A DNA stretch of 64,000 nucleotides from Colwellia sp. BRX10-3 (GTDB lineage Bacteria > Pseudomonadota > Gammaproteobacteria > Enterobacterales > Alteromonadaceae): NCBI RefSeq assembly GCF_014077505.1, contig NZ_JACGWA010000001.1:930001-994000 (forward strand). Direction: 5' to 3'. This document shows positions 10,195-63,108 of the stretch, piece after piece (the first letter of the stretch is position 1; the number at the start of each line of letters is the position of its first letter). The notes beneath the pieces are model-generated. The model was not told the origin of the DNA, did no database searches, and worked only from the letters and a program-made list of their open reading frames with translations. Both the position numbers and the translations under genes were made by a program.

Positions 10195-10203
10195 GTTATG
10201 GTT

Positions 10204-10240: not shown

Positions 10241-10305
10241 TTATTTAGTAGAGGCAAAAACAAGCATAACTCATCAAAATAATTTCACTTTTCAACATCA
10301 TTTAC

Positions 10306-11083: not shown

Positions 11084-11232
11084 TGTAGTGAACAAGATAG
11101 TAAAAATGTAAAATTATAGTCAGCTATTAACTATGGCAAAAAACCTTCTGTTTTCTGTCCTCAAAATTTAGGTCACTATGTATAAGCCCTCCGTTGGGCG
11201 TTAGTATCAAATTTTACCCAAGGAGTATATTT

Positions 11233-11637: not shown

Positions 11638-11702
11638 AATAAGCTAGTTAGCTGTTCACCCAATACAGAGGTTATATAGGTATAGAATTTTGGATTATTA
11701 GA

Positions 11703-11911: not shown

Positions 11912-12069
11912 CTACAGCACTAAAACGATAAGATTTAAGCTTACCTTTGTATTTTACTTGAAGTAATATAAACATATATGCTGATTATGAAGCACTGCTA
12001 ACAATGTGCTCAGTGATGAGTATGTACAACAAAGTTGTAATAATTAAATACACATACACTGTACTTTAA

Positions 12070-14331: not shown

Positions 14332-15133
14332 TTATTTCCTGCAATAATATTATTTTGAACCAAGATGACCATAGCTTAAAAAGTTTTGATAACTGTAATA
14401 CTCAACAATGCATTTCAAGACATTTGAAAAAAAAGAAAGCGATTAATATTTGACCTATGCCATTTTGAGGGCGACTGTTAATAATCATTGAACCCGTGAA
14501 TTTCAATTAATGCATTGTGCTCTAAGCCGCATTCATGGTTTCAACGGGTATAAGTATATTTTCATTATCAAAGAAAATCTAGCAATAGCAATTTTCAACA
14601 TAATTAAAACCCGTAGCTCATTTCATTGCCATTAATAACATTGACACTTTGGCTGATTCGATAATTTATTGATCTATGTATTGTATACAAAGGCGCTAAG
14701 TTAATAGCACTAATTAAGCTAATTAATATGACTTAATGTTAATTCAATATTTAATATTTAATAGTCACACGTATATGGTTTCAAACTCAACTTAAGTAAC
14801 TTTATTAATCTATTCACCTTACCAAATTAAATAACACGACATATACGTTTTTCAACTTTTCTTAGGTCGTTTATTAAACACTGGCAACATCGCCCAACAA
14901 CTTAATTATACAACCACGCAAATATATAAGATGAGTCAACTAGGAAAATAAAACGAGAATAAGTTTGCTTAAATTATTTCGCTTGTTCTAAATTCCCTAA
15001 TGCAGTGCTAAGTTGTACAATAAAGTGATCTGCTTGGTACTAAATAACAAAGACTATGATAAAACCTTGTTGGGTATATCTCAAATCCGCAGTATTTGAA
15101 TAAGACATAAATTGAGTAAGGCTGTAAATACCA
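14332..15133. other. 800-bp intergenic region between divergent genes
   Basis: Very A+T-rich with no ORF supported by a ribosome site. It lies between the divergent TonB receptor and the giant sensor kinase and must contain both promoters. No Fur-box-like palindrome, tRNA or clear hairpin was seen. The length is unusually large for this window. Confidence 0.5.
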
Positions 15134-18100
15134 ATGGTAAACTTTCAAGACTACACCTTCGTAAAGGAACAGCAAGAAGTTTCAAGCTCAGTTCAGTTAT
15201 TTGTAGTCAAAAATGATAACGAGCAAAATTTCTTAGTTAAACGCCTAAAAAAAACGAATAATTACCAAGCACTTGCTCGCTTTAAAAAGGTTTTGGCCTT
15301 ACAAAGTGAACTCTCAATCGAACAGCTAGTTGCGCCGCTTGAAATTTATGACGAACCACAATATTGTTACGCGGTATTTCCTTTTTCTACACAAACTCAA
15401 TCTCTGTCTGCATTGTCGTCAACAGCTCTTTCATTAAACAGTAAATTACAAATTTCTATTAATATTTGCCAGCTCTATGCTCAGTTGCATCAACTCGGCT
15501 TTATTGTTAATAACATTTGCCCTGATAATATTTTTATTGATGAGCATTTACAGCCAAGAATATACGACTTAAGCTTTGCAACCAAAATTTCTGTACTGTA
15601 TAAAAAGACCTCAAGTATTGCTGTTGAACGTCAATATTTAAGTACCTTAGCCCCTGAAGCTAGTGGCAGAATAAATCGTGCGATTGAGGTTTACTCTGAT
15701 TTTTATTCTATTGGAGCGAGTTTATTCAACTTATTTACCGGTCGATTACCCTTTGTTTATTCCGATGAAATGGAACTCGTTCATGCCCATATTGCAAAGA
15801 AACCCAAACTTGCCAACGAATATAATGCCGATATACCTGAATTAATCACCAATATACTTGCAAAATTATTAGCAAAAGAACCCTCGCAACGTTATCAAAC
15901 CGCAGTAGGGCTTAAAGCCGATTTTGTTCACTGTGCTAATGATTTAAAGAGTTTTGGCGAAATCCATCCTTTTGAGCTGGGTAAAAAAGACTTCAGTAAT
16001 AAACTTATTTTTTCTGCTGCTATTTTTGGACGTAAACACGAACAAGATATTTTACTGCAAGCCTTTAATCATGTTGAACAACAACAAAATAGTCAAATCT
16101 GTGTGCTCAGTGGCCACTCTGGATCGGGCAAGTCTCGACTTATTAAAGAGTTACATCGTCCCATTATTGAAAAACAAGGTTATTGTGTTTCAGGTAAGTA
16201 TGAACAATATAAAAAAAATACTGCCTATTTCGGATTAATTCAAGCGGTTACCGACCTTGTTGAACAAATCCTAGGTGAGAGTGAAGAAAGTCTAACACGC
16301 TGGAAAACAATATTCCAAACGGCATTGCAAGGTAATGGGCAATTGTTGATTGAGCTGGTGCCAGCATTAGCGCTGATAATTGGCCCGCAACCAACACTTG
16401 CCGAATTACCTGTAGAAGAAACTCGTATGCGTTTTAACTCGACAATCGGGCTTTTTCTAGAAGCATTTAGTATGCAAAATAGCATTGTTTCTATTTTTAT
16501 TGATGATATGCAATGGGCTGATATCGCTAGTATGAAATTATTGCAACATTTAGTTGAAGCGAACGTTACTACTAATCTACTGCTGATTATTGCATTTCGA
16601 GATAATGAAATAAGTGCTACACACCCATTAAATCAACTATTAGAAGAAATAAAGAAAACCGAAGCTTTTAATGCGCACATTCACCTATTACCACTCGATG
16701 CCAGCGCAATCGGGCAATTTATCGCCGCATCACTATCACTAAAGCTTGAAGTAATACAACCTTTAGTTGATATCGTTATTGAAAAAACTGCCGGTAATCC
16801 ATTCTTTATTAAAGAGTTTATTAAGTCTTTAAATGAACAATGTATATTAACTAAAAATAAAAAAAATCAGTGGCATTGGGATGAGCAACTAACACACAAA
16901 CTTAACGCAACAGACAACGTTATCGAGTTAATGGCCTTACGACTAACTCATGTATCAAAATTTGGTCAAAACATATTACATCACGCTGCCTGCATCGGTG
17001 GCATAATTCCAATTAGCTTACTAACACGAGTAGTCGGTGCAACCGATAAAGAGATTGAGCGGGAATTACGTCCTTTAATCGCTGATGGCTTATTAATTGC
17101 CTATTCACAAAACCAACAAATGGATGCATTAGAACAAATTAAGTTCTCACATGATAAAATACAACAAGCCGCTTACTTGTTGAACAACCCTGAGCCAAAC
17201 TCGCTTATTCATTACAAAGTGGCGCAATATTATCTCTCATCTGACAACACTAACCATGTAAATAATTTATCTACTGATGAGAATGTTTTTGATTACATTG
17301 AGCATATAAACTTGGCTGCTGCTTTGTATATTGAACAAGGCAATGAAACATTACTAGCTCATTTTAATAATGCTGCGGGCGTAAAGTCGTTAGAAATAAA
17401 TGACTACAATAATGCGCTCTATTACTTTGAACAGGCTGAAGACTATTTAGGTAATATGCATTGGCAGAATGAATACTCCTTAAGCCTTAGCATCGCGCTA
17501 GGCAAAGCCAATGTGCTGTATTACACCCAAGATTACGAACAAGGTAATTTACATTTTCAACAACACATTTCGCTCATTAGTGACGTTATAGATCAGGCTA
17601 GTTTTACAAAAATCCAAGTGCATACACTTATCGCGCAAAACAACATGCAAAAAGCGCTAGATTTGGGGATATCCTCCTTAAAAACGCTTGCTATTAAGCT
17701 GCCTCAAGATTGCGAAAAGCTGAATTATTTAGCTATAGAGCAACATTATCAAAGTAACCGCATTGCTAACCTGCAAAATTTGCCAGCCATGACCGACAAA
17801 CGTCAATTATTAGCCTTAGATATTCTTAATACTATTCAGACACCGGCTTATTTATTAAGCCCTGCAGAGTATATCCGTATCGCTTACGCTTCACTTGAGT
17901 TATGCCTAAATGCTGGGCTTTCTGCGCTAAGTGCTAAGGTATTTGTTACCCATGGATTATTATTATGTGGTGTATTTAGCCGTTTTGAAGAGGGTTCAGC
18001 TTTTGCTGCTTTAGCAAAAAAAGTCAATCAACAATACCCCTCTGAATCTATTTATGTAGAGGTTGAGTTTACTCAAAATGTTTCAATTTCTCCTTGGACA

Positions 18101-43748: not shown

Positions 43749-45413
43749 TTAGGTACTCTCCATCATTTTATCGTTAGCGGTATTCGGTGGCACAAGTGGC
43801 CATACATTCTCTTGCGCATCAATTTTTACTTGCAACAAATATGGCCCGTCATGCTCTAGCATTTCTTCAATGGCGGCGCTCACTTCTGATTTTTTAGTGA
43901 TCATTTGAGCTTTAATATCGAAAGCATTCGCTAACATAATAAAATCAGGGTTATCAGCTAAATCCGTTTCGCTTAATCGGCCATTGAAAAATAGATCTTG
44001 CCATTGACGCACCATACCTAGCTTGGCGTTATCAATAAGCACTATTTTAACCGGTAATTGAAAACGCTTAATGGTTGAAAGCTCTTGCACATTCATCATA
44101 AAAGAACCATCACCCGAAACCGCAATAATACAGTCTGTCGGTCGACTAACTTGGGCGCCAACTGCTGCTGGTATACCAAAACCCATGGTGCCCATACCGG
44201 CACTGGTTAAAAAATTACTTGGGTCATCAAATACCATGTGTTGTGCAGCCCACATTTGGTGTTGTCCAACATCAGTAGTTACGCAACTATTTTCAGGCAT
44301 TTTATCGCTAATTTCTTTTAATACCGCAGGCGCAAAAATGGACTCACCGGGGTGGTTATAATCCCAAGCAAAATCTTCATTCATTTGCAGGCAAACTTTT
44401 TTCCAAGCTTCAATGGCTAATGGAATGGCTAATGCAGGTAAATTAACCTTTAAATCGCCCAATATTGACGCATCGACAATTCGTCGTTTATTTATTTCTG
44501 CGGTATCAATATCAAAATGAATAACTTTGGCATTAGGCGCAAATTCATTTAACTTGCCGGTAACTCGGTCATCAAAGCGCGCCCCTACTGCAATCAATAA
44601 ATCACATTCTTGTACCGCTATATTCGCCGCTTTAGTACCGTGCATGCCCAGCATACCTAGGTAATATTTATCTTCTGGATCAATCGCACCTAATCCTTTA
44701 AGGGTAGAAACACTTGGCAAACCGGTTATTTTGGCAAAATCGCGTAATTCATCGATGGCATTAGCCATACCAACACCGCCACCAACATATAAAATAGGTT
44801 GCTTGGCTTGATTTAATAATGCGATAGCACTACCAACATTCGCTGGTGGCAATTTCACTTTGTTTTGTAAGTTAACTAACTCATCTAAACAGCCATTAAC
44901 TTCGGTGATCTGAATATCTTTAGGAATATCGACTAATACCGGTCCTTGCCTACCTTCTAAGGCAATGGCAAATGCTTGGTGCAGCACGCTGGCTAAATCG
45001 TTAATATCGGTGACTTGAAAAGAGTGCTTAGTACAGGCAAGAGATAAACCAAAAATATCAATTTCCTGAAATGCATCAGAACCCATGGCAGCAGTGGCAA
45101 CTTGTCCTGTAATAGCAACAACGGGAATTGAATCGGCTAAGGCATCAGCAAGGCCTGTGATTAAATTAGTCGCTCCTGGCCCCGATGTGGCAAAGCAAAC
45201 ACCTACTTTACCGGATGCTCTGGCATAACCTACGGCTGAAAATGCGGCTCCTTGCTCATGTCGACACAAAAAGTGTTCTACATCACTGTCATACAGCGCG
45301 TCGTAGATAGGCATTATTGCGCCACCTGGGTAGCCAAAAACATGAGCAACGCCATGCTGCTCTAGCACGTTAAATAATAAGCTTGCGCCGGTCAATTTCT
45401 TTTCAGTTGTCAT
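43749..45413 (-). CDS. ilvG: Acetolactate synthase II large subunit
   Basis: A 554-residue ThDP enzyme condensing pyruvate with pyruvate or 2-oxobutyrate. Signatures: [18 protein letters not shown], catalytic Glu in [22 protein letters not shown]/ThDP region [14 protein letters not shown], and ThDP/Mg motif [20 protein letters not shown]. The gene is intact, unlike the frameshifted ilvG of E. coli K-12. It is the first structural gene after the leader and attenuator. Confidence 0.97.
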
Positions 45414-45942: not shown

Positions 45943-46605
45943 ATGACCTTAGCCTGTGTTTTCAGTCGTGCTCGTGTCGGGCTCGAATCCCCCTTAGTTA
46001 CGGTAGAAGTACATTTAGCCAATGGACTACCCGCATTTAACATTGTTGGTTTACCTGAAACATCGGTTCGAGAAGCAAAAGATCGGGTTCGTAGTGCCAT
46101 TCTCAATTGCGGATATGAATTCCCCGCTAAACGTATCACAGTAAACTTAGCCCCTGCAGATTTACCAAAAGAGGGAGGACGCTTCGATCTGCCTATTGCC
46201 TTAGGTATTCTTGCCGCTGCTGCACAGCTTCCTGAAGCAGACTTAAAGCAATATGAATTTGCTGGTGAGTTGGCGTTGTCTGGCGAACTAAGGGCTATTA
46301 TTGGTGAAATACCCATGGCAATGGCTTGCAAAGAAAGTGGCCGAACACTAGTAATACCAACGGCAAACGCAGAACAAGCCAGCTGGGTACAACAAGTAAA
46401 AATATTAAGTCTGTCACATTTAAATCAACTATTTCCTCATTTTTTAAAACAACAAAGCTTGCCACTTGTTGAAACAAGTACCATACAAGAATATAAAACC
46501 AAAATTGTGCATGACATTGCCGATGTTGTCGGTCAGCCGTTAGCCAAGCGAGCGCTAGAAATTGCCGCCAGTGGTGGTCATAATTTACTTATTTACATGC
46601 CTTAA
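45943..46605 (+). pseudogene. comM: comM 5' part (Lon-like domain), split by the island
   Basis: The first 216 codons (to 46590) are true comM/YifB: VTVEVHLANGLPAFNIVGLP, NLAPADLPKEGGRFDLPIA, then DVVGQPLAKRALEIAASGGHNLL. At that point, just before the Walker A motif, the gene runs into island DNA and ends five codons later (IYMP, stop 46605). ComM is a hexameric AAA+ helicase promoting branch migration during natural transformation. The fragment keeps only the N-terminal Lon-protease-like fold and has no ATPase site. The missing part starts at 56,195. It is divergent from ilvL, as yifB is in E. coli. Confidence 0.95.
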
Positions 46606-46614
46606 TAGACCCAT
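46575..46614. other. attL: left island junction
   Basis: The comM half-site TGGTC(46575)...TTTA, core CTT 46588-46590, then the island arm ending in AATAGACCCAT. In rebuilt comM the core is flanked by TGGTC and GACCA, a small dyad expected of attB. In the rebuilt circular island the arms pair as inverted repeats 22 bases either side of CTT, with 15 of 22 positions matching, expected of attP. Confidence 0.8.
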
Positions 46615-46668
46615 TTAGTTTTAAATCTAAACAAGTAAGAATATAACTCTAAAAATTAACATAAGTTA

Positions 46669-46854
46669 TTATTTAATATTGTTTTTTTTAACAAACTCAA
46701 TAATTGACTTCAAGTCACCAAAAGTATCTAAAAGCATCTTCATGGCATGTTTACTGACTTGCTCGTCTTCATCTCTAGCAAGGATACACCACGTTTGCAT
46801 TAAGGTTATAGGGGGGGTTAACTGCTGTTTTTTAGTGTTAGGTCTATTGCTCAT
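46669..46854 (-). CDS. Small hypothetical protein
   Basis: 61 residues, soluble and probably helical (MQTWCILARDEDEQVSKHAM). ATG 46854 has GGAATTATT before it. The C7 run in codons 13-15 makes the reading frame sensitive to slippage. It is the first gene inside the left end of the island. No family recognised. Confidence 0.5.
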   Translation of the reverse strand: MSNRPNTKKQQLTPPITLMQTWCILARDEDEQVSKHAMKMLLDTFGDLKSIIEFVKKNNIK

Positions 46855-46951
46855 AATAATTCCATTTATTGAGACTCCATATATAAAAAGTAGTAAACAA
46901 TTCTTGTTTCTGCAATAGTGTTTTCTCTATAAAGTCCTCTAGGAATGAACA

Positions 46952-47656
46952 TTGAAGTTATTCTATTTTCTTGTATTACTATCATCTTTATTAATTAACT
47001 TAGCTGATGCGCACAGTGTCCCTAGTTCATGGACTAAGACCAAGCAGACCGCTAGGGATAAAGTCTACTTCGACCACTCAGTAACTAAGTATTGTAGTTG
47101 CCCTTACGAGCCTAAAGGTACTAGTGGTGGTGTTGTCGATACGGAATCCTGTGGGTATGAAGGCTCTGGAGCAAAGTATAAGAATGCTATTAACGTCCTC
47201 GATTGGGAACACGTAGTGCCTGCTTCATTAACGCCAGCTAGACAAATGGACTGTTGGGTTAATGGTAATCGTAGTCAATGCGAAAGAACCTCACAAGATG
47301 CCAAGAATATCATCTTTGATTTACATAACCTTGTACCAGCAGTAGGACAAGCTAACCGTATCAGGTCAGACTCTCGTTATGGGATTATCCAAGGTGAAGA
47401 AAGGAAGTTAGGCTCATGTGACTTTGAATGGACTAAGGAGCTTGTAGAGCCTTCTGATGCTATTAGGGGCGACTTAGCAAGGGTTTGGCTATATATGAAT
47501 TATAAGCATAATGTGGTTGTTTCTGAGAACGAGTTTTTGATGTTCCTTAAGTGGTCTCGTATAGATCCACCTAGTGAATGGGAGTTCATTAGGAATACTA
47601 GGATTAAAGAGATCCAAGGGAACTCTAATGTGTTCGTGGATATGTTTATTGATTAA
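46952..47656 (+). CDS. Secreted endonuclease I (EndA/Dns/Vvn family)
   Basis: A 234-residue exported nuclease that cuts DNA (and usually RNA) without sequence preference. The start is TTG with AGGAA six bases upstream; no ATG or GTG start fits. The signal peptide ends LADA-HS (cleavage about residue 20). The beta-beta-alpha metal site is complete: DWEHVVPAS (Glu86, His87) and DLHNLVPAVGQANRIRSDSR (Asn126). Six or more cysteines (CSCP, ESCGY, DCW, QCE, SCDF) suit disulfides in the periplasm or outside. Related DNases on mobile elements (IdeA of SXT, Dns of Campylobacter elements) block natural transformation. Confidence 0.93.
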   Translation: MKLFYFLVLLSSLLINLADAHSVPSSWTKTKQTARDKVYFDHSVTKYCSCPYEPKGTSGGVVDTESCGYEGSGAKYKNAINVLDWEHVVPASLTPARQMDCWVNGNRSQCERTSQDAKNIIFDLHNLVPAVGQANRIRSDSRYGIIQGEERKLGSCDFEWTKELVEPSDAIRGDLARVWLYMNYKHNVVVSENEFLMFLKWSRIDPPSEWEFIRNTRIKEIQGNSNVFVDMFID

Positions 47657-47734
47657 ATCCATTTATGAACATAGTCGTTATTAGAATGGTTTTTAACATG
47701 AAGTATGGCTGGTAGTGAGTGTAAAACTTAACAA

Positions 47735-48346
47735 TCAAGTATCGACGATATATGGTCTAAAACTTGATATAGCCTCCTTTTCAATTAAACAACGAACACA
47801 ATGTGCTAGAAATCCATAGATACTTAATAAATCTGTAATAGTTGATTGAACCATTTGTGGGTCAGTAGGAGTAATTAAAGTATGTATATTCTCGACCTCT
47901 GCATCCATACGAATTAACTCCGCATCAAAATCGATAGGATACTTTTTTAATTCTGTATGTATATGAGATACCTCAAATGGGAGGTTTTTAATATTATTAG
48001 TGATATGACGATTAATAAAGCTGTTCAGTCTGAGTTCGTTATGTTGGTCAGCTACAGACATACCTAAATAATGTCCCAATTCATTACTAAGACTATCAAT
48101 CGATAATTGGACGCTATTAAGCTTATCTTTATGAAATTCAAATATTTTCTCTCTAGCCTTAAATTCATTGTTTTTGTCTAATTCTTTTATTTTCAAACCT
48201 AATCGAAGTTTACTCTGATGAAAAACGAGTATGCCTGTAATAGAAGCAGGTCCAAGAATTTTTACTGCATCACCTATTACATCTAAAGTAAGTTTATATA
48301 ATTCTATATCCATAAGAGTGTTGTCTTTATCCTGAGGTTTAGGCAT
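47735..48346 (-). CDS. Hypothetical protein, one N-terminal membrane or re-entrant segment
   Basis: 203 residues. A mildly hydrophobic stretch (AVKILGPASITGILVF, about 27-42) is followed by a charged, probably coiled-coil region (KIKELDKNNEFKAREKIFEFHKDKL) and a helical C-terminal half with LLSIYGFLAHCVRCLIE. ATG 48313 (residue 12) is an alternative start; neither has a strong ribosome site. No family recognised. Confidence 0.6.
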   Translation of the reverse strand: MPKPQDKDNTLMDIELYKLTLDVIGDAVKILGPASITGILVFHQSKLRLGLKIKELDKNNEFKAREKIFEFHKDKLNSVQLSIDSLSNELGHYLGMSVADQHNELRLNSFINRHITNNIKNLPFEVSHIHTELKKYPIDFDAELIRMDAEVENIHTLITPTDPQMVQSTITDLLSIYGFLAHCVRCLIEKEAISSFRPYIVDT

Positions 48347-48409
48347 TTCATCGATTAAAAAGTAATATTGGGAGGTAATTAAAAGCTAGCAGTGCTTGCG
48401 TTTCTTTAA

Positions 48410-48829
48410 TTAGTTATTACTTTCACATTCAGTTAGAGGGTACATATCCATTAAATATATGGGATATACAGAAACTATAGATTGACTTGATAGGCTGCTC
48501 TCACTAGCAATTTTCAATTTTGACCAAGAGATGAAAAGTTCTAATTCATCTGTTGCGGACTTTGCAGCATTTGTAAGGCAATAATAAAAAACAGGTTTAT
48601 CAATGTGAGTTTTCTTTGCCATTTCTAAGGCGACATAATTACCATAATACATATGGGTGAAATCTATTACCGCACCTATATGTGCTTCTTTTCCATTACT
48701 ATGATTATCATAGCGACTTATCAAGTGTTCTAGGCTACTTCCATATGCTGTAACCCCTTCCCACTTACCCTTAGCAAATACAGGGGCAACGGTGAATGCA
48801 ATTAAAAGCATGAGTAATAAATTTTTCAT
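48410..48829 (-). CDS. Small exported protein, unknown
   Basis: 139 residues with a clear signal peptide (MKNLLLMLLIAFTVAPVFA, cleavage before KGKW). The mature part is about 120 residues with two cysteines (YYCLTN and TECESN) that could pair in the periplasm. No family recognised. It is on the same strand as the preceding hypothetical, 63 bp away. Confidence 0.65.
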   Translation of the reverse strand: MKNLLLMLLIAFTVAPVFAKGKWEGVTAYGSSLEHLISRYDNHSNGKEAHIGAVIDFTHMYYGNYVALEMAKKTHIDKPVFYYCLTNAAKSATDELELFISWSKLKIASESSLSSQSIVSVYPIYLMDMYPLTECESNN

Positions 48830-49028
48830 AGCTATCCTTAGATCAACAATAGAGATTTACTCATAATATTCCACAATTTAGAAAAATAAGAAAGCACAAA
48901 CTATGTTTCTATATGACTAATGAAAAAACCTTAGTTAAAACACTCTTAGACTGGTATAACACATTGAATTAAATAAATTTAGACCTTAAAATAAATATCA
49001 AGTTGAATTAAGTAACAACTGAGGAACC

Positions 49029-49271
49029 ATGTTTAACTACCTATTACCATTAATAACTTTATCGATAATATTCTACACAGGAGCGCACATTCAAAACATT
49101 AACAAAAAGCATTGTTCCGTCTACCTATTCTTAAGCATATTTGGCTTAGGTGTAAATGCAAAATTCGTAGTGAGTGAATTTGGATTTATAGGACTGTGGA
49201 TCTTTTGGTTTTTAATTTTTGGTGTTGCTTATATACTTTCATATAAGAATATCTTTAAATTCGACAACTAA
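49029..49271 (+). CDS. Small two/three-helix membrane protein
   Basis: 80 residues, almost all hydrophobic: helices at about 2-20, 33-50 and 56-74 (LWIFWFLIFGVAYILSY). GAGGAACC is ideally placed before the ATG, supporting real translation. Function unknown. Confidence 0.6.
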   Translation: MFNYLLPLITLSIIFYTGAHIQNINKKHCSVYLFLSIFGLGVNAKFVVSEFGFIGLWIFWFLIFGVAYILSYKNIFKFDN

Positions 49272-49339
49272 AATCAGATTTATAATGAGCTAATAGCTAT
49301 TCAAGATTCACAATCCCTAATTAATATAGCTTCAAAATC

Positions 49340-49885
49340 TTACTTGTTACGGTCAAGCATCAGTTCCTGAGTTACAGTAAGAATAGGAGACTCTGTAGTT
49401 GAAGGTGGTTTGGGTGTACCTTTTATATCTCCTCTACTTATCAAATTAAGAACAATATATTCCACAAGGATTGTATAGCGGATATTTCCTGCGGGTGAAT
49501 TGACTAACTTGACTACCTCCATATAGCACTTTTTTATGTCTTTAGGATCAGAAACCCCATGATATCGACATTGCTCTCCAAAGTTGTAATAGTTATCATT
49601 AATGAACTCCTCAGAGACTTCTTTACTATTTGACCAAACATATGGTTCATCAATGGGATCAAAAAGAGCTTTTTTAAAACCTAGTTGAATTCGAATATAT
49701 GCTTCCACTACATTACGGAAAGAACAGTAAAACTCTCTAGTTAGCTTGGCAACATCGAAAGCATCAACTCTCTCAATGTAACAATTAAGTTCTTGCTTGG
49801 TGAGTTTGTACTTTTGTATTAAGTGAGCTTGATCTGACTCACTTACTGGTTGTTTAGGTGCCCAACCTTTGAAAAAACTAAACAT
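49340..49885 (-). CDS. Hypothetical soluble protein
   Basis: 181 residues, mostly helical and charged, beginning MFSFFKGWAPKQPVSESDQA. Contains CYIERVDAFDVAKLTREFYCSF and a Pro/Thr-rich tail (KPPSTTESPI). AAAGAG precedes the ATG. It is 13 bp downstream of the exported protein at 49,899-50,435 on the same strand, so the two are probably an operon. No family recognised. Confidence 0.6.
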   Translation of the reverse strand: MFSFFKGWAPKQPVSESDQAHLIQKYKLTKQELNCYIERVDAFDVAKLTREFYCSFRNVVEAYIRIQLGFKKALFDPIDEPYVWSNSKEVSEEFINDNYYNFGEQCRYHGVSDPKDIKKCYMEVVKLVNSPAGNIRYTILVEYIVLNLISRGDIKGTPKPPSTTESPILTVTQELMLDRNK

Positions 49886-49898
49886 AAATATTTACTCT

Positions 49899-50435
49899 TT
49901 ATTTACAAGTTTTAATAAACAAGTCATTTAATGATTTTATTTCTATTTTGATAATTAACCCATCTTTACCACTTCGATATCTCATTAATTTATATTTACC
50001 CGACAACATATTATCGAGGACATTTTCACCAAAATAATTATTGGGTAGTACATGAAGCCAATAACTTTCTCTTTTTAGTTCTTGCTCGAATGCCTTATCA
50101 TCATCAAATCTAAACGTTAGAGTAATAGGTTCATCAGTATGGTAACCATCAGTATTTTTCAATGCGAAATTACCTCCTTTGTTATCACTAGAGCATATAA
50201 CGACTGGCGTAAATCTTGCGGGCGCCCCTTCAGGTGATAAACTGGCTGAAAACTTTCCTGTTAACTCATCTACACTCCTAGAATCATACCAACCGTATTT
50301 ATGATATTTTGATTCCATATCACCTTCTATAGCTTGAAGTTTTGCTACTAGTGTAGGAGAAAGAGCAGTTCCTTTAACAAAAGTTGGATATGAGATAAAT
50401 AAAGAAAATAATATTAGTGTGACTAAAGCTTTCAT
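49899..50435 (-). CDS. Exported protein, unknown
   Basis: 178 residues with a signal peptide (MKALVTLILFSLFISYPTFVKG). The mature part has an internal VDELTGKFSASLSPEG, a Cys in VVICSSDNKGG and a C-terminal Cys (IKTCK). This pattern suggests a small periplasmic disulfide-bonded domain. GGGA precedes the ATG. It is upstream of, and probably co-transcribed with, the 49,340 gene. No family recognised. Confidence 0.65.
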   Translation of the reverse strand: MKALVTLILFSLFISYPTFVKGTALSPTLVAKLQAIEGDMESKYHKYGWYDSRSVDELTGKFSASLSPEGAPARFTPVVICSSDNKGGNFALKNTDGYHTDEPITLTFRFDDDKAFEQELKRESYWLHVLPNNYFGENVLDNMLSGKYKLMRYRSGKDGLIIKIEIKSLNDLFIKTCK

Positions 50436-50823
50436 TTTATTGTCCCATTTTTAAACCTGTATATTTCACTTTAATAGTAATTGCTTTGCCCATGAATTAC
50501 TCACCGTATTTGGGAGGGACTAAAGCTATTATTGTTGTCGAAAGCTAACCAGCGAATTAGTATTAACTAAATGAATTATATGTATTTACCATTATTTATT
50601 CAAGTTTGTAAAAGTAAAAAACAATAGGATAAAGCAATATTATGCAGATGATACATACCTAAATATTTGGAGAAAATTTAAAGACAATAACGAAATATAG
50701 CCCTTACTTAATATACCCATGAGGTATACCCTGCTGACCTCAGTCAAATCATATAAAAACATGTACCTATCAGGGTTGATTTTTAAATGTATACACACTA
50801 AAATCACCACCTCTTAGAACTAG
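50436..50823. other. Non-coding region upstream of the resolvase gene
   Basis: Divergent promoters for the exported-protein pair (minus) and the resolvase (plus) should lie here. Short inverted repeat TGAGGT (50720) / ACCTCA (50737) and GTAC-rich motifs (GTATACC, GTACC, GTATACAC, GGTACACC over the resolvase start) could be recombinase or repressor sites. No gene longer than 18 codons is supported. Confidence 0.45.
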
Positions 50824-51402
50824 ATGGGTACACCTATGGCTTCAGTAGCCTACATTAGAGTATCAACGGTAGACCAGAACACTACACGACAATTAACAGA
50901 CACTGGAATCACTTTCGATAAGGTATTCACTGATAAGTGCAGCGGTAGTACAATTCAGCGACCAGCCCTAGAACAAATGAAAGAGTATGTGCGTGAAGGT
51001 GATGTAATTCATGTTCATAGTATTGACCGTCTGGCTAGAAACCTTGACGACCTTTCTAAATTAGTCAATGACTGGAATAGTGCTGGCGTTACTGTCTTTT
51101 TCCATAAAGAGTCCCTTACTTTTGACTCAGGTGACACCAACCCTATGTCTAAACTCATGCTCCAAATGCTAGGTGCTGTTGCCCAGTTTGAGCTATCCAT
51201 GATCCAAGAGCGTCGCAGGGAGGGGATTGCTAAAGCTAAAGTTGCAGGTAAGTACACTGGTGGGAAAGCTAACCTAAAAAAACATAAACAAATACGTCAA
51301 TTACGCGCTGAGGGTAACTCACTTCGTAAAGTGGCTTCATTAGTTGGAGTATCACTATCTACCGTGCAACGTGTATTGGCTATATCAGAGGAAAATAAGT
51401 GA
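50824..51402 (+). CDS. Small serine recombinase (resolvase/invertase family)
   Basis: 192 residues. The catalytic domain has Ser14 in YIRVSTVDQN, then SGSTIQRPALEQM and HSIDRLARNLDDLSKLV. The long helix (FELSMIQERRREGIAKAK) joins a C-terminal helix-turn-helix (GNSLRKVASLVGVSLSTVQRVL, 167-188). This is the Hin/Tn3-resolvase type, which cuts at short palindromes and performs inversion or resolution; it is not the integrase of the island. ATG 50836 is an alternative start. Its last codons overlap the start of the ParB-like gene (GTGA). Confidence 0.9.
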   Translation: MGTPMASVAYIRVSTVDQNTTRQLTDTGITFDKVFTDKCSGSTIQRPALEQMKEYVREGDVIHVHSIDRLARNLDDLSKLVNDWNSAGVTVFFHKESLTFDSGDTNPMSKLMLQMLGAVAQFELSMIQERRREGIAKAKVAGKYTGGKANLKKHKQIRQLRAEGNSLRKVASLVGVSLSTVQRVLAISEENK

Positions 51403-52355
51403 AACAATTTATGGCAGATAGCTGTCTTAAAGAATTAGACCCTAGAACATTGACGTTAGACCACGCTATGCAAGCTCGAGACGTTGAGTTGATTAAAGAT
51501 AAACGGTTACGCTCATCACAGGAAATTAAGCAAGCAGCGCAAGACCAAGCGATACTTGAAGACCTACGTAATGGAGTAAAGATAAGACAAGCTATAACTG
51601 TATTTGTTGTTGGTGATGTAAATTATGTGGTCGATGGTTTTCATCGTACGGGGGCATGTTTAAAGTACCTAAGAGAAAACCCTAAAGCTAACTTAACAAT
51701 ACCAGCACTAGTAATAAAGAATCGTACATATAGAGAAGCTGTTGCGACAGCTCAAGATGCAAACCAAAACCATGGCGTTGGTGTCACTGTTGACGAAGTT
51801 ATGCAATCAAAGTTTCGTAAGTTAATCGTAGAGGGGAAGTTTAACTTAAGTGTATCTGCGGTGATGAAAGAAGTTGGGTGCAGTAAAGGGCAAGCGGCTC
51901 ATATCGCAAAAGGGCTCAAAGCTTGTGGTAAAGCATTTACTAATCCTGTTGATGTAGAATTCACTGATTTAGCAGTATATGTAGATAAGCTTCAACATGG
52001 ATTACAAAATCAATTCTATTGCCCTGATAGCACTTGGGACTCAAAAGGATTTCCTAAGATTAGACGATTGTCAGATATAGCCTCTGGTAAAGAATTTACT
52101 GGATTTGATATGGATGATGATGCATGGGAGCAAGTTCAAATAGAAACAGCAACCAAAGATTTTGGTCGTCTTATTGAACGCTATGGTGATGATTTATTTC
52201 GAGAAGCTCTCAGGAAGTATGTTAAAGGCACAGGCCTTGGTATATCTATCACTAAACGTAATAATTGGTTAGAACAAGCTGGCTCTGTTAAAGGTGATGA
52301 AGTACCTGAAGGTTGGGATGGTACTGTAGTTCCTGTTATCGATAACGACTTTTAG
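51399..52355 (+). CDS. ParB/sulfiredoxin-fold DNA-binding protein
   Basis: 318 residues starting at GTG within a 4-bp overlap (GTGA) with the resolvase stop, preceded by AGAGGA, so translation is coupled. The N-terminal ParB-like domain has ITVFVVGDVNYVVDGFHRTG (DGFHRTGA, 79-86), matching the DGxHRxxA nucleotide-binding loop, then IPALVI. A helix-turn-helix lies about 150-175 (LSVSAVMKEVGCSKGQAAHI). The C-terminal part is unfamiliar. No ParA is present, so classic partition is unlikely. A regulatory or recombination-accessory role is inferred from the coupling. Confidence 0.75.
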   Translation: MKQFMADSCLKELDPRTLTLDHAMQARDVELIKDKRLRSSQEIKQAAQDQAILEDLRNGVKIRQAITVFVVGDVNYVVDGFHRTGACLKYLRENPKANLTIPALVIKNRTYREAVATAQDANQNHGVGVTVDEVMQSKFRKLIVEGKFNLSVSAVMKEVGCSKGQAAHIAKGLKACGKAFTNPVDVEFTDLAVYVDKLQHGLQNQFYCPDSTWDSKGFPKIRRLSDIASGKEFTGFDMDDDAWEQVQIETATKDFGRLIERYGDDLFREALRKYVKGTGLGISITKRNNWLEQAGSVKGDEVPEGWDGTVVPVIDNDF

Positions 52356-52366
52356 AGTCTTTGTGA

Positions 52367-52406
52367 ATGAGCCTGATAAGTCACACTGAGGTACTATCAG
52401 GCTCAT
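52367..52406 (+). terminator. Hairpin after the resolvase-ParB-like operon
   Basis: A perfect 12-bp inverted repeat ATGAGCCTGATA / TATCAGGCTCAT with a 16-base loop, 11 bp past the stop. The T tract is weak, so it may instead be a protein-binding or RNA-stability element. Confidence 0.6.
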
Positions 52407-52803
52407 ATTGTTGCAGGTGTACACATGTGTACTGTGGGCGAACTTAGGGTGTACACAACAGTTTAATGTTCCTTTATTAGTATGCCCTAATAGTTACATC
52501 TTACTTATGAATAAAGGCTTTAAAAGTGAAGTGAATGAGGGGGGGGGTTAATAATGTCAAAGCTTTGCGAAAAACGGAAATTAGCCATCTATTTTGTTTG
52601 TACCAGATTTTTTTAATAACTATCTTACAAATTCTGATTATTTCATAAGTTAAACACATCAGAAAATAGAAACGCGATGGTTTTATTTCTATTAGTTTAT
52701 TTATACGTCTAAATAAAGCTATCTAATTTATTGAAATTGTATAATATTATATAGTAATGGAAATGATTGAAACGCCAAGAAAAACTTAAGACACGGATAG
52801 TTT
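52407..52803. other. Non-coding region with GTGTACAC palindromes and a G9 run
   Basis: The perfect 14-bp palindrome GTACACATGTGTAC (52419-52432) is followed by GTGTACAC (52449-52456), both near GGTGTACACA. G9 at 52539-52547 lies within a short frame starting ATG 52508, which stops after 14 codons as written. The remainder is A+T-rich and carries the promoter for the 52,804 gene. Confidence 0.55.
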
Positions 52804-53505
52804 ATGCCTCTGAATACTTTTAAAACAATAGACAATTACGGAGCTATGCTAAATAAGCTCGCTTCTATTAATTTTATCGTTTTACTAATACTGCTACATT
52901 TTATTTCCACACAATCAGAAGTAGTGCAAAAATTTCTTGATGGATACAGTTGGGAAGTTACTGTAGTTTCATTAAAAATACCTATTGGTTATTTTCTTCC
53001 TTGTTTTGTTGCCGCCTTATTTGGGCGCATCATTAAACTACACGATAGAATATCAGACTTATTTAGAATTAGGCCTTGGTACGATTGGATATACATTCTT
53101 GAGCCAATGCTAAAAGAGGTAGGATCAAAACAGTCTAAAAAGGTTATATTAAATAACCGCGGCTCAATTATGTTAAAAGTATTCTATAAATACGCTTCAA
53201 GTAAAGATCCAAACTCGGTTGTAGATAAACATCTAATAGAATTAGTCATGGATCAATTATCTTGGTATTGGATTGTACTAGAGTCTTCGTTATCGATATT
53301 TATCGCTACTATTATTCTTTTATATTTAAAGTGCTTTGACCACGTTCATGTTGTTTTTTATATTGGTTTAGGTTTGATTGTTTTCGCTAAAACTATTCAA
53401 AATGGTTGTTCTAAGTATACAAAAAGGGAAGTTTCAAAAATTTTGGAATATCCACCAAGAAGAAAAGAAATTAAGGATGAATTCGATGCAATATCTTCTC
53501 AATGA
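52804..53505 (+). CDS. Four-helix membrane protein, unknown
   Basis: 233 residues. Hydrophobic helices at about 22-37, 57-75, 160-176 and 181-197 leave a central cytoplasmic-looking domain (80-155) with LHDRISDLFRIRPWYDWIYI, and a basic C-terminal tail (KYTKREVSKILEYPPRRKE). It overlaps the methyltransferase gene by 20 bp, so the two are co-translated and probably act together. No family recognised. The ribosome site is weak. Confidence 0.65.
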   Translation: MPLNTFKTIDNYGAMLNKLASINFIVLLILLHFISTQSEVVQKFLDGYSWEVTVVSLKIPIGYFLPCFVAALFGRIIKLHDRISDLFRIRPWYDWIYILEPMLKEVGSKQSKKVILNNRGSIMLKVFYKYASSKDPNSVVDKHLIELVMDQLSWYWIVLESSLSIFIATIILLYLKCFDHVHVVFYIGLGLIVFAKTIQNGCSKYTKREVSKILEYPPRRKEIKDEFDAISSQ

Positions 53506-54163
53506 TAATGTAGTGAAATCTGAGAATGCAGCAAAACCTCACTCTCAAAAAGCAAAGGATGTTCATGATTATTTAATATCGTTAGGTAAAGTGAATAAGA
53601 CTCTTGATTTTGGCTGTGGAAAGCTAAGGTACGCGGACTCAATTGTTGAAATGTCTGAAAGCGTGACATTCTTAGATTCAAAAATACAACTTACCAGGCA
53701 GCAAATGGTTAAAAATGAAAAAACATCTGTAGCCAATTATGTCAGTAATAATTACCTTAATTGTGATTGCGTACCTTATGAAGATGTAGACAAAATTCAG
53801 ACTAAATTTGATTTGATTGTGTGTACTAATGTTATTTCAGCCATCCCATGCCCGGAGACTATACAGAATATATTTAGAATTTTCAGTGATTTAATATCAA
53901 GCAACGGTAAGGTTATTGTCATCAATCAGCACCGTAGTTCCTATTTTAAAAAGTTTGAGTCAGGTGAAAAACATTTATTTGGATATTTGTATGAGAGTAG
54001 ACGTGGAACTTCTTATTACGGGATAATCACAAAAACTGTTGTTAAGGATTTAGTTGCTGAGCATGATATTGAGGTTGTCAATGATTGGGTTTCAGGGGAT
54101 ATAACTTTTTCTGAAATAATGAAATCTTTAAACCCAGGTTGTGAAGAAGAACTAATGACTTAA
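53486..54163 (+). CDS. Class I SAM-dependent methyltransferase
   Basis: 225 residues from ATG 53486, which has AAGGA eight bases upstream; the frame is open back to 53378 but that would overlap the membrane gene by 128 bp. The SAM site is TLDFGCGKLRYADSIVE (about 39-55), acidic strand 2 ends TFLDS (Asp64), and motif IV/post is FDLIVCTNVISAIPCPETI (108-126). C-terminal YYGIITKTVVKDLVAEHDIE resembles small-molecule or lipid methyltransferases. No NPPY/DPPY motif is present, so a base-modifying DNA methyltransferase is unlikely. The partner is the membrane protein upstream. Confidence 0.8.
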   Translation: MQYLLNDNVVKSENAAKPHSQKAKDVHDYLISLGKVNKTLDFGCGKLRYADSIVEMSESVTFLDSKIQLTRQQMVKNEKTSVANYVSNNYLNCDCVPYEDVDKIQTKFDLIVCTNVISAIPCPETIQNIFRIFSDLISSNGKVIVINQHRSSYFKKFESGEKHLFGYLYESRRGTSYYGIITKTVVKDLVAEHDIEVVNDWVSGDITFSEIMKSLNPGCEEELMT

Positions 54164-54612
54164 AGTTATTATTACTACTAAATGCAGTGAAAGTATTCAT
54201 AGTTAATAAGCTTTCTTCCTAAATACTCTGACGATTTCAAAAAGATCGATAGCTGCATTACCATTATTTCCTATCTATTGCATTCTATAAACTTCTAAGA
54301 AGCTACCAAGGTGGTAGTCAACTGCTCCACAAACTATAGAAAGAACTCCAAGGCAAAGCTTCAAATTCAAAATCTAATCTAAACTGAAGTTTTAACTAAA
54401 AGTTTGTGTCTTCTCTGTGAAAATGATTGAACTAATATTCATGAAATTTTGTTAAATTCCGTGTACAGAGGGAAATATTAAAATAAGGTTAACAATCAAA
54501 AATGAACTTTTAAAAAGTACGGTTTTTGTACAAATAATGGAACGATGCAATCGCAGAGGTCATCTAGTACCCCTGCTATACCCCCCTAGACATCAAATAA
54601 ACATCGTAATGG
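54164..54612. other. Non-coding region between methyltransferase and integrase 3' ends
   Basis: About 450 A+T-rich bases between convergent genes. GTACGGTTTTTGTAC near 54517 is a loose GTAC-bounded inverted repeat. A C6 run (TACCCCCCTAG) lies near 54582. No gene or clear terminator was found. Confidence 0.45.
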
Positions 54613-56145
54613 TCAAACCTCAACTCTAAAGCTCATACCATTGTTAGCAGTCCATAGGTTTTCATCTTTGCTATAATTTAGATGAATGTTATTACCGTTA
54701 TTTACTAAGATATCTATGGTTGTTTTATTTGAATGCAGCACAATCGTCTTTAACTGCCTCTTAAGGTATTGATGAAGCTTAAGGCGTTCAGACTGTTCAT
54801 TGATATTACCTGTAAGCTCATTAAGGTCTACTGGCTCATCATCAACTACCTTGCTCGATTGTATATCAACTAGTTCTTTATTTATCTCATCGATACGACT
54901 CTCCTTGGTGCGAATAGCTTTACTAATAGTGCTGCTAAAACCGTGCTCATCAATATCTTGAACTAATTTATCAATTCCCTTTTGAAGAGCTGATAATTCA
55001 CCTTCGAGCCTCACAGTTTTGGCGTTATCTTCAGGCTTTCTAACGTATGTTGTAAGTAATTGCTGGAGTGCTATCAGTACAGCCCATTGGACTGAATAGT
55101 AACGGTGACTAACGTACTTACAACCGCCTCCATACCTTGCTAGGCTGCACACTAGATAGTAACCACCTTTATCAGATGTCCCCTTGTTAACGAACTGGAT
55201 TGATGAGCCACACTCGCAAGACACAAAGCCAGAGAAGATATTCTTTGTAACACCTTTTTTAATAGACCCTGTACTACCAATACGCCTACTATTAATACCT
55301 GCTTGAGACTTAAACCATAAGTTCTCGTCAATGATGGAAGGGTAGTAGTCTTCGATTACATCACCTGTAGGTTCACGCTTACCTAATGCGTTAGTTATAT
55401 GCGGATGATATTCCCCTAAAACTGTACGACCATTAAGGATTTTAGTGATGTAGGATAAATGCCACTTAGTCGATCGAGAGCCAATAGGGGGGAGCTTTTC
55501 TTCATTGAGTCTTCTAATTATAGCTGCCCGTCCATACCCATCAGCAGAAAGAAAAAAGATATACTTAACAATGAGTGCTTTTTCTTCTATGACCCCTATT
55601 TCTGTCTTATCAGCGTTATAATGCAGCCAAGCAGGTAAAGGAGAACCTAAAAGCTCTGTGGCAGCATTGCTTTGCTTTTTATGCCATGCATCCCCTACAC
55701 GTCTACTCTTTACTGCAGACTCTTCATGCGCCCTACTCATTGATATAAGGGATATCATTAGGGTTTGCATATCCATGGAACCCTTTTTAAAAACTTGGCC
55801 ATCCATGAGTGTAACGACGGTTATACCAAGGTTTACTATACGCATCAGCAATAGAAGCGATGTCTCAACAGGCTGACGACTCATACGGTCAAAGCTTTCA
55901 ATGAGTAAATAACTTTCAGGCTCTATTAAGCCACCTTCAACTGCTTGAATAAACTTACCTAGCTCTCCGTCTGTTGTATTTTTACCTTTGTAACCACTAA
56001 CACCTAGGTCTTTGAATGAAAGACTCTGTAGTGCTAACCCATTATTTCTCGCGTATGTTTCAGCACTTTCTAATTGGCGTTTGAGGCTCCGTCCTTCAAT
56101 TTGACCTTTAGTACTGAAACGTATGTAACTGTATGCTTTATTCAT
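54613..56145 (-). CDS. Large serine recombinase (island integrase)
   Basis: 510 residues. The resolvase-type N-terminal domain has catalytic Ser11 in SYIRFSTKGQ and arginines in IESFDRMSR (86-90). The recombinase domain follows with FFLSADGYGRAAIIRRLNEE. A zinc-ribbon (CECGSSIQF...YYLVCSLARYGGGC, about 315-345) and a coiled coil (370-470) complete the large serine integrase layout. It is the only site-specific integrase in the island and begins 47 bp from the right crossover point, as integrases usually adjoin their att site. It is the likely agent of insertion into comM. Excision would normally need a directionality factor, not identified here. Confidence 0.93.
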   Translation of the reverse strand: MNKAYSYIRFSTKGQIEGRSLKRQLESAETYARNNGLALQSLSFKDLGVSGYKGKNTTDGELGKFIQAVEGGLIEPESYLLIESFDRMSRQPVETSLLLLMRIVNLGITVVTLMDGQVFKKGSMDMQTLMISLISMSRAHEESAVKSRRVGDAWHKKQSNAATELLGSPLPAWLHYNADKTEIGVIEEKALIVKYIFFLSADGYGRAAIIRRLNEEKLPPIGSRSTKWHLSYITKILNGRTVLGEYHPHITNALGKREPTGDVIEDYYPSIIDENLWFKSQAGINSRRIGSTGSIKKGVTKNIFSGFVSCECGSSIQFVNKGTSDKGGYYLVCSLARYGGGCKYVSHRYYSVQWAVLIALQQLLTTYVRKPEDNAKTVRLEGELSALQKGIDKLVQDIDEHGFSSTISKAIRTKESRIDEINKELVDIQSSKVVDDEPVDLNELTGNINEQSERLKLHQYLKRQLKTIVLHSNKTTIDILVNNGNNIHLNYSKDENLWTANNGMSFRVEV

Positions 56146-56167
56146 TGTAATTTGTTCTCAAAAATTT

Positions 56168-56206
56168 ATGGGTCTATTCGTGCATTATAACCTTTTCATT
56201 GGACCA
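56168..56206. other. attR: right island junction
   Basis: Island arm ATGGGTCTATT (56168-56178), core CTT 56192-56194, then comM sequence to GACCA (56202-56206). The island arm mirrors that of attL. Confidence 0.8.
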
Positions 56207-57070
56207 CCCGGAACGGGTAAAACTATGCTGGCAAGCCGATTACCTGGCATTTTGCCGCCCATGACTGAACAAGAAGCACTATCAAGCGCCGCCATTCAAT
56301 CTATTTGCCATAAAAATATTAGCCCAGAATCATGGCTAACAAGGCCTTTTCGCGCACCACATCATACCGCATCGTCAGCAGCTTTGGTCGGTGGCGGCAG
56401 TCATCCACAGCCAGGTGAAATTTCTTTAGCCCATAACGGCGTACTTTTTCTTGACGAACTTCCTGAGTTTGAGCGCAAAGTGCTCGACGTATTGCGTGAA
56501 CCCATGGAGTCTGGCGAAGTAACCATTTCACGTGCCCTGATCAAACAAACGTTTCCGGCACAATTTCAACTAGTCGCCGCGATGAATCCAAGTCCCACCG
56601 GATTTTACAATGACAAACGCAGCAGTCCAGAGCAGGTGTTACGCTATCTCAATCGACTTTCAGGACCATTCTTAGACCGTATTGATATACAAATTGAAGT
56701 AACAAGATTACCTCGAGGCATGTGGGCTAACGATGATGGTAAAGGTGAGTCGAGTAGCACAATTCAAAAACGGGTTAGTATTTGCCACCAAAAACAAATT
56801 TTGCGCCAAGGTAAAGCCAATGCTCAACTTGGCAGCGCTGAAGTAAGAACCTTCTGCCAACTCGCTAAAGAGGATAATGAGTTTTTAGAATTAGCCATTG
56901 AAAAACTTAACTTGTCGACAAGAGCTCATCATAAAATACTTAAAATATCGAGAACACTTGCTGATATGGAAGCCGCCGATAATATTGAGAGAAAACATTT
57001 AATCGAAGCATTATCTTACCGTGCTATGGATAGAATATTACGCCATTTAACCGACGCTATTACGGTATAA
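56168..57070 (+). pseudogene. comM: comM 3' part (AAA+ ATPase and C-terminal domain)
   Basis: True comM resumes at 56195 (FIGPPGTGKTMLASRLPGIL) and runs intact for 291 codons: RPFRAPHHTASSAALVGGG, Walker B VLFLDELPEFERK, AAMNPSPTGFYND, and C-terminal ALSYRAMDRILRHL. The open frame begins upstream at an ATG inside the island end (MGLFVHYN), so a 300-residue protein with a whole ATPase but no Lon-like N-terminus could be made. No strong ribosome site precedes it. With the 5' part it reconstitutes a 507-codon gene. Confidence 0.95.
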
Positions 57071-62193: not shown

Positions 62194-63108
62194 ATGAATT
62201 TAGATGTTTGGGCGCAGTCATTCAGTAATGCATTGTCTCGTTTTTGGACAGAAATAGCGGGGTTTTTACCAAACCTAATTGCCACAATAATGGTTATATT
62301 TATTGGGCTATTCATTTCAAAAGTGATCACCAAGTGGGTGGCTAAAATTTTAGAAAAAATTGGCTTTGACACACTTTGTCAAAAACTGAGTGTAGATAAA
62401 GCCCTTCAAACATTGGGATTAAAGTTAGCGCCATCAGAGATGATCGGTAAATTACTGCATATCTTTTTTGTCTTGATCATCCTTGTCGCCGGTGCAGACA
62501 CGCTTGGCCTCGACAGATTCTCATCAATTCTAGACGAATTTGTATTGTATCTTCCAAAACTGTTGGGTGCGGTTGTTATTACACTTATGGGCTTATTTAT
62601 AGCCAAATTGGTAAAAACGCAAGTTGAAAGTTCGCTGGATAGCTTGGGTGTTGAATATGGTGCCGCTGCAGGTCGTGTGCTTCAGCTACTGGTACTGTTT
62701 ATCACTTTTTCACTGGTTACAGGCCAACTCGAGCTAGAAATGGCGTTACTTAACACCATTTTCACCGTACTAGTTGCCAGCCTTGGTATCGCATTGGCTT
62801 TAGCTTTAGGTTTAGGCACGAAAACGATAGCGAACAGTATTGTTTCAGGCATTTATGCCAGAGAACAATTAGCGCCGGGTGACGAAGTTGAATTTGATGG
62901 CTTTATCGGCAATGTTGTGGCGGTTTCAACCGTTAATACCTTGATAGAAAATAAAGCAGGCCAACGTTTGAGTATTCCTAATCAGGATTTGTTGACACAA
63001 AAGTATCTCACCACGCAAATGAGTCAGCCGGTTAAATCGACGAAGACAGCTAAAACGACTAAAACGACTAAAACGACTAAGCTAAGTAAAACAACTAAAG
63101 AAAAGTGA
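62194..63108 (+). CDS. MscS-family mechanosensitive channel, short form
   Basis: 304 residues. Four hydrophobic segments lie at about 22-42, 83-105, 120-142 and 168-225. The pore-lining helix is followed by GLGTKTIANSIVSGIYAREQ and the beta-domain GDEVEFDGFIGNVVAVSTVN...LSIPNQDLL. The usual C-terminal alpha/beta cage domain of E. coli MscS is missing; the chain ends in a Lys-Thr-rich tail (TKTTKTTKTTKLSKTTKEK). Such channels open on osmotic downshift or carry solutes. GGAG precedes the ATG. Confidence 0.88.
   Translation: MNLDVWAQSFSNALSRFWTEIAGFLPNLIATIMVIFIGLFISKVITKWVAKILEKIGFDTLCQKLSVDKALQTLGLKLAPSEMIGKLLHIFFVLIILVAGADTLGLDRFSSILDEFVLYLPKLLGAVVITLMGLFIAKLVKTQVESSLDSLGVEYGAAAGRVLQLLVLFITFSLVTGQLELEMALLNTIFTVLVASLGIALALALGLGTKTIANSIVSGIYAREQLAPGDEVEFDGFIGNVVAVSTVNTLIENKAGQRLSIPNQDLLTQKYLTTQMSQPVKSTKTAKTTKTTKTTKLSKTTKEK
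63050..63080 (+). repeat. 9-bp tandem repeat in the channel gene's 3' end
   Basis: Three perfect units of CTAAAACGA (63050-63076) plus CTAA, encoding repeated Thr-Lys-Thr. Units are a multiple of three bases, so copy changes alter tail length without shifting frame. Confidence 0.85.

Follow-up and report, generated by a model that had tools for sequence, protein, structure and literature searches.

A large serine recombinase island in comM of Colwellia sp. BRX10-3 carries an Endonuclease I-type DNase: a possible two-pronged block on natural transformation

Mobile genetic elements (MGEs) in comM, MGE-borne DNases that act against transformation, and Tn6022-like and Tsy elements at the Walker B motif of comM (PMC10293859) are already known. 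According to Croucher et al. 2016 (PMC4774983), MGEs with a CF65_00446-like integrase sit in comM of Aggregatibacter actinomycetemcomitans, Acinetobacter baumannii, Mannheimia haemolytica, Francisella philomiragia and Pseudomonas syringae. In A. baumannii, loss of comM is described as accompanying non-transformability, with a two-orders-of-magnitude drop for the DNA tested (PMC11472951). DNases carried by MGEs are reported to inhibit transformation in Campylobacter jejuni, Bacillus subtilis and Vibrio cholerae (PMC4774983, PMC10893306). That mobile elements attack transformation to escape deletion is a debated idea.

Here we analyse a stretch of 64,000 nucleotides of Colwellia sp. BRX10-3 (contig NZ_JACGWA010000001.1, positions 930,001 to 994,000; hereafter the window, with positions counted from its first letter) from a genome assembly of 3.87 Mb in 55 contigs. 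Within it, a small island bearing a large serine recombinase (LSR) gene divides comM and holds, on the side of the N-terminal half of the gene (comM-N), the gene of an Endonuclease I-type DNase. The combination of a comM insertion with a DNase on the comM-N side in the closest islands is a new observation; in the leading titles and abstract openings given by searches of an open-access library, we saw neither an LSR at this comM site nor an element that pairs insertion into comM with a DNase. From the predicted gene products we infer, as a reasonably probable reading, that this LSR-moved island exerts a two-pronged block on natural transformation, through the cut in comM and through the DNase.

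The insertion site in comM

The island spans positions 46591-56194 (9,604 bp, one core copy excluded) and splits comM between GGHNL-L and FIGPPGTGKT. The 5' part of the gene, left core copy included (45943..46590, plus strand), carries the ChlI domain (Pfam, 8.6e-47) and ends in GGHNLL; as read in place, comM-N runs through 45943-46605 (220 aa) and its end is GGHNLL-IYMP-stop. The 3' part after the core (56195..57070, plus strand; Pfam Mg_chelatase, 1.3e-77) extends from FIGPPGTGKT to the stop codon. Junction comparison gives CTT as the sequence common to both sides, with a left core copy at 46588..46590 and a right one at 56192..56194; fusing the flanks at this CTT in a join test yields 507 codons plus a stop, with no internal stop. 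An earlier note on this DNA, made from the letters alone, had described this cut and resumption, the shared CTT and the open 507-codon gene that removal of the island restores, and the junction reading and the join test bear it out. The check that it proposed for lost or extra bases, a comparison with uninterrupted comM of close relatives, points the same way, the site being uninterrupted and gap-free in all 16 other genomes of the genus. We regard the insertion as real and well delimited, and its kind as near certain.

Within GGHNL-L the crossover falls in the second Leu codon, a little ahead of the Walker A motif and outside the motif itself. Since the junctions of a relative of the island in genome G309 have only CT in common, against CTT in the window, the probable crossover dinucleotide is CT, with which this codon begins. 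In G1177, G345 and G395 the bases common to the junctions are TT, in the same Leu codon, and from this comparison of junctions the core seems to follow the Leu codon of the host (CTN or TTR). The G+C content is 35.1% in the island, 38.8% in the rest of the window and 43.9% in comM. The gene is divergent from an acetolactate-synthase-like open reading frame (ORF; named by eye) at 43749-45413 on the minus strand.

On the right-hand side the reading frame of the C-terminal half (comM-C) opens at an ATG of the island at 56168, giving MGLFVHYNL-FIGPPGTGKT. All six islands of the same LSR clade (window 56168-57070; loci L036, L121, L122, L123 and L037) have the comM 3' part in frame with an island ATG inside or near the attP arm and keep Walker A, the 3' part in G1177 being frameshifted further on. 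The four islands of a second LSR clade have in-frame stops instead of the ATG before the comM 3' part. Because the attP geometry is fixed, the in-frame ATG across the six islands may be one chance event.

The integrase, its attP arms and its relatives

The integrase gene (54613..56145, minus strand) encodes an LSR of 510 aa in which all three LSR domains (Resolvase, Recombinase and zinc-ribbon) lie within one protein according to Pfam; PHROGs assigns it to phrog_95 integrase (1.9e-68). These domains, and a gene start 46 bases ahead of the right-hand core copy, agree with what the earlier note had proposed for the right end, a large serine recombinase gene. The YIRFS of its start fits the catalytic serine motif. 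Used as a query, the protein is the sole match in its own genome (E 0.001).

Just inside the two junctions lie 11-bp inverted repeats, AATAGACCCAT at 46604..46614 and ATGGGTCTATT at 56168..56178, the latter with its ATG in frame with the comM 3' part. The repeats are exact, and the window has a single occurrence of ATGGGTCTATT and a single one of its reverse complement. A distance of 13-14 bp separates them from the core, so that they are set back from the extreme ends of the island; in the circular form they would flank the core, each supplying one half of attP. An LSR attP has symmetric arms around its core. For the window and the three relatives closest to it (G309, G1128 and G1174), the distance of the ATGGGTCT arms from the core is 24 nt on the side before it and 24-25 nt on the side after it; the dyad of the window, G1128 and G1174 is shifted by one base. 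The dyad score, taken as the best of five offsets with shuffles treated alike, was matched by 1 of 2,000 shuffles for the window and, again out of 2,000 each, by 0 for G309, 0 for G1128, 2 for G1174, 26 for G1177 and 0 for G030; in G1177 and G030 the arms are somewhat different in sequence. The 11-bp repeats are best read as the outer arms of the LSR attP, so that the earlier note was right about their perfection and their place inside the ends, whereas they form part of attP and not a separate end feature. Taken together, the locus has the marks of a large-serine-recombinase element: a 2-3 bp core at attL and attR, a scarless empty site and symmetric attP arms.

We then surveyed homologues of the integrase, with E limits of 1e-20 in 17 congeners, of 1e-40 in 395 genomes of the family and 394 of the order, and of 1e-60 in 369 genomes of the class and 108 of the genus to which G309 belongs; a named genome collection was searched as well, and these sets partly overlap. 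The survey gave 38 distinct loci, the window included. Fourteen of them use the same comM codon (window, G309, G1128, G1174, G1177, G030, G345, G404, G395, G1163, G706, G714, G452 and G988); ten of these were read at both junctions and four at one, and G452 and G988 are less certain owing to their divergent comM. The other LSRs with at least 51% identity to that of the window are all at this codon (5/5). No comM was found within 1.5 kb of 23 of the 38 loci by tblastn with the window comM, a search that a very divergent comM could escape, and the neighbours there are varied by eye. The earlier note's view that the integrase aims at the P-loop codons thus stands as regards site specificity, although the crossover is upstream of Walker A and not within it; and of the homologous integrases that it proposed to seek beside comM, the close LSRs lie there, whereas the wider family is not bound to comM. 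A distant LSR (~33% identity) in G026 (locus L042, ~7399-15350) lies elsewhere in comM, near residue 65. In loci L040 and L081 the LSR adjoins, on its upstream side, a small MmcQ/YjbR-like ORF (by eye), perhaps another recurrent target.

In Pseudoalteromonas, the genus of G309 and a member of the same family as the window, 5 of 108 genomes have an LSR match and all five matches are in comM; the G309 locus is identical over 19,751 bases to that of Pseudoalteromonas sp. EB27. Hosts of the close LSR relatives have comM halves only ~49-61% identical to those of the window. Because these relatives use the same codon in hosts with divergent comM, the LSR might serve for integration work in marine Gammaproteobacteria. 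Among viral contigs no relative of the window LSR was found; 90 phage records, all below 60% identity, and 39 records of a plasmid collection gave an LSR match, and in the three plasmid records that were opened (H21, H16 and H29) tblastn found no comM in the stretches concerned.

A tree of 33 of the 38 loci, with long branches and many weak deeper forks, groups the window with G309, G1128 and G1174 (100/100), joined next by G030 and G1177 (100/99). The partial LSRs of G014 and the second of G395, and the unextracted ones of G001, G003 and the second of G005, are absent from it. A second comM clade comprises G345, G395, G404 and G1163; its sister, G539, has an LSR that adjoins a chemotaxis-receptor-like ORF (by eye). 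At first sight the tree seemed to show several independent origins of comM targeting: constraining the 14 same-site LSRs to one clade is strongly rejected (approximately unbiased test, p-AU 1.6e-63), as is a clade of the 10 LSRs of the two main clades (p 4.0e-6). With G539 added, one clade is no longer rejected (10 + G539, p 0.41; 14 + G539, p 0.11). We therefore make no claim of convergence, as the data are compatible with one origin from which G539 later switched away, although they do not show it.

The DNase, the proposed block on transformation and its alternatives

The DNase gene (46952..47656, plus strand) is co-directional with comM and encodes 234 aa with a signal-peptide-like start (by eye). 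It matches Pfam Endonuclease_1 (9.8e-28) and PDB 2vnd (1.2e-39), can be aligned along most of the protein with Endonuclease I members of solved structure and keeps the blocks DWEHVVPA and DLHNLVPA, which hold catalytic residues; the match to the NCBIfam equivalog model for E. coli-type Endonuclease I is below cut-off (141.9 of 372 bits). Some MGE DNases of the Dns and IdeA type belong to this family as well. The gene is present in all four closest islands (window, G309, G1128 and G1174), on the comM-N side and co-directional with comM. The DNases of the other three are 70-73% identical to that of the window, whereas the comM halves of their hosts are only 54-56% identical to those of the window. 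Within the genus, the Endonuclease_1 loci (29 compared besides itself, of 32 matches) reach at most 41% identity to the window DNase, and no relative of it was found in viral contigs.

We propose that the LSR acts between attB in comM and the attP of the island in its circular form, where the arms ATGGGTCTATT and AATAGACCCAT enclose a CT core. Integration would cut ComM in two and so lower the recombination of incoming DNA, while the DNase, going by its predicted activity and export, would degrade DNA at or outside the cell surface; the two together would shield the island from erasure by natural transformation, and excision of the island is probably a rare and clean event. Four points are read directly from sequence: the insertion is clean, the dyad is attP-like, relatives use this very site, and the comM halves are undecayed. 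As set out by Croucher et al. (PMC4774983), the idea of intragenomic conflict fits a comM cut and a DNase in one element. Moreover, since the comM break and the nearby DNase are in one small island, the two effects would be separable by simple gene removals.

Several results weigh against this proposal. Loss of ComM is reported to have a very minor effect on transformation with identical DNA in V. cholerae (PMC11472951). Genes of comEC and dprA type, found in all 17 genomes of the genus, speak for the proposal, but comEC-type genes are also in 10 of 14 control genomes and dprA-type genes in 11 of 14, E. coli included, so their presence is no proof of competence. The islands of G030 and G1177, which come next in the clade, gave no match to the DNase. 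Fifteen of the 16 other genomes of the genus, none of them with this island, have Endonuclease_1 genes; the window genome has them at two more places, and 110 of 72,556 plasmid records have one. A Pycsar cyclase/effector pair in the G309 island (locus L008, 11835-13087, the EB27 island) is cargo that points to general defence, if the other cargo has any assignable role. The spread of Endonuclease_1 genes, the two islands in which the DNase was not found and the use of other genes by the wider LSR family also favour a plainer explanation: an ordinary LSR island for which comM is merely a conserved, dispensable target and the DNase a generic cargo with no tie to transformation. We consider this possible but rather unlikely, since the four closest islands, which span two genera, all keep the DNase and have it without exception on the comM-N side, whereas the rest of the cargo changes, and since comM is described as disrupted by several kinds of MGE (PMC4774983, PMC10293859).

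A bolder form of the two-pronged block is that the integrase, in breaking comM, sets the DNase gene behind the comM promoter, so that comM induction would yield DNase instead of the recombination helicase. This boldest reading draws on orientation and spacing in four islands, and we hold it to be doubtful. The DNase gene follows the core copy by ~360 nt in the window and by ~50 nt in G1128 and G1174; in G309 it lies ~1.4 kb into the island, with two co-directional genes ahead of it. Between comM-N and the DNase gene of the window there is a short antisense ORF, no terminator was found in that stretch, where only 0.3 is expected by chance, and promoter-like sites number 1 against 1.8 expected, counts too low to be informative. 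Were it true, a competence-gene promoter would have been captured by an element that the competence pathway would otherwise erase. A competence-controlled comM promoter, which would bear on this reading and on the two-pronged block as such, is not supported: a scan of the 300 nt that precede comM covered 19 regions, G008 and several hosts of islands not being among them, and gave CRP-N sites with at most 2 mismatches in 0/19 and a weak CRP-S match in 1/19.

The comM halves show no sign of decay. Against congeners, the rejoined comM of the window has a ratio of non-synonymous to synonymous rates (dN/dS) of 0.023-0.039 (13 of 15 comparisons with computable dS), and the congeners among themselves give 0.011-0.044 (54 of 105 pairs), a coarse test because many dS values are near or above 1; G008 was excluded for its frame break. 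In 18 three-way comparisons the codon changes on the window side number 57-79 for synonymous and 0-9 for non-synonymous ones, and its partners show similar figures. The split would thus be recent relative to species divergence or often undone, and both fit equally. The earlier note had taken the intact flanks as a sign of a young or still excisable insertion; the undecayed halves agree with it, whereas the split state is not always reversible, since comM-C of G1177 is broken, its 3' part lying in two frames. In G008 (locus L045, ~8365-8407), an island-free congener, the comM 5' part has a frame break, either an independent loss of comM or an assembly error.

The exactly restored open frame, the undecayed comM and the intact attP arms would also suit a reversible switch, in which excision of the island under some condition restores ComM. 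The comK prophage of Listeria is the model for such a switch. We judge it very unlikely here: a recent insertion accounts for the same facts, the comM-C half of G1177 is frameshifted, and family searches of the island proteins found no candidate excision directionality factor, the short ORFs at 46669-46854 and 49029-49271 being outside the scan. Recombination directionality factors are diverse. Finally, a Tn7-like (AbaR/Tn6022) or other transposon insertion is improbable enough that we reject it. comM is indeed a target of Tn6022-like elements, as the earlier note had said of Tn7-like ones, but these are described as aiming at Walker B (PMC10293859), whereas here the insertion lies ahead of Walker A with a 2-3 bp core and LSR anatomy, the LSR gene stands at the end, and a Pfam scan of ten island proteins gave no match to the Tn7 transposition machinery.

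Other island genes and known systems

Between the DNase and integrase genes lie eight further ORFs. Four on the minus strand are of unknown function: 47735..48346 (203 aa; no match in Pfam, NCBIfam, PHROGs or PADLOC), 48410..48829 (139 aa, signal-peptide-like start by eye; no family match), 49340..49885 (181 aa; no family match) and 49899..50435 (178 aa, signal-peptide-like start by eye; a marginal PHROG match only, 0.0076). On the plus strand follow a small serine recombinase of resolvase/invertase type (50824..51402; Pfam Resolvase, 9.6e-36) and, overlapping it by 4 nt, a ParB-like protein of 318 aa (51399..52355; phrog_1033, 2.9e-8; no Pfam match). Next are a membrane-protein-like ORF of 233 aa with hydrophobic stretches by eye (52804..53505; no family match) and an S-adenosylmethionine-dependent methyltransferase-like ORF whose true start is probably further in (53378..54163; Pfam Methyltransf_12, 1.8e-7). 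Among the ten proteins scanned, no relaxase or conjugation gene was found by Pfam, NCBIfam or PHROGs, and the PHROGs families matched are integrase, invertase, DNA-binding/transposase-type, ParB-like, methyltransferase and unknown-function only. Outside the island, a short tandem repeat at 63033-63099 encodes the terminal TKTTKTTK-like tail of an ORF that by eye is MscS-like.

When the ten island proteins of the window were searched against the six islands of the clade, the LSR and the small serine resolvase alone gave a match in every one; the other cargo turns over among them. The G309 island carries, besides its Pycsar pair, a MazG-like and an HNH protein. The island of G030 (locus L037, ~10325-14172) measures 3.8 kb, and its ORFs of at least 60 aa, after a filter for non-overlap, are the LSR, an RNase H and the small serine resolvase. 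In the islands of the second comM clade (L039, L064, L063 and L124), mobilization- and replication-like ORFs were seen by eye, and this clade may be mobilizable.

Phages of the phiC31/A118 type have an integrase with Resolvase, Recombinase and zinc-ribbon domains and a dyad attP, as the window island does. The island differs from them in that none of its ten scanned proteins matched a PHROGs family for phage structure or lysis. As an MGE-borne DNase, that of the window is comparable with Dns of CJIE1 and its CJIE2/CJIE4 kin in C. jejuni and with IdeA of an integrative and conjugative element of V. cholerae; in the passages that describe these DNases no link to the disruption of a competence gene is stated, whereas the window DNase stands on the comM-N side of the break (PMC4774983, PMC10893306). 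Like the Tn6022-like and Tsy elements, the island targets comM at a conserved ATPase motif, but there TnsF, a selector of tyrosine-recombinase type, is described as aiming at Walker B, whereas here an LSR acts upstream of Walker A (PMC10293859). After these two, the window island is a third type of element to hit the conserved ATPase codons of comM. The closest parallel in interpretation is offered by the MGEs of Croucher et al. 2016, which occupy one orthologous place in comM in diverse species and are read as blocking transformation (PMC4774983). They and the window island are alike in being inserted in comM; the passages that describe them state neither the type of the CF65_00446-like integrases nor the exact site. 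In that account, comM insertion and MGE-borne DNases appear as separate tactics, whereas the window island holds both (PMC4774983).

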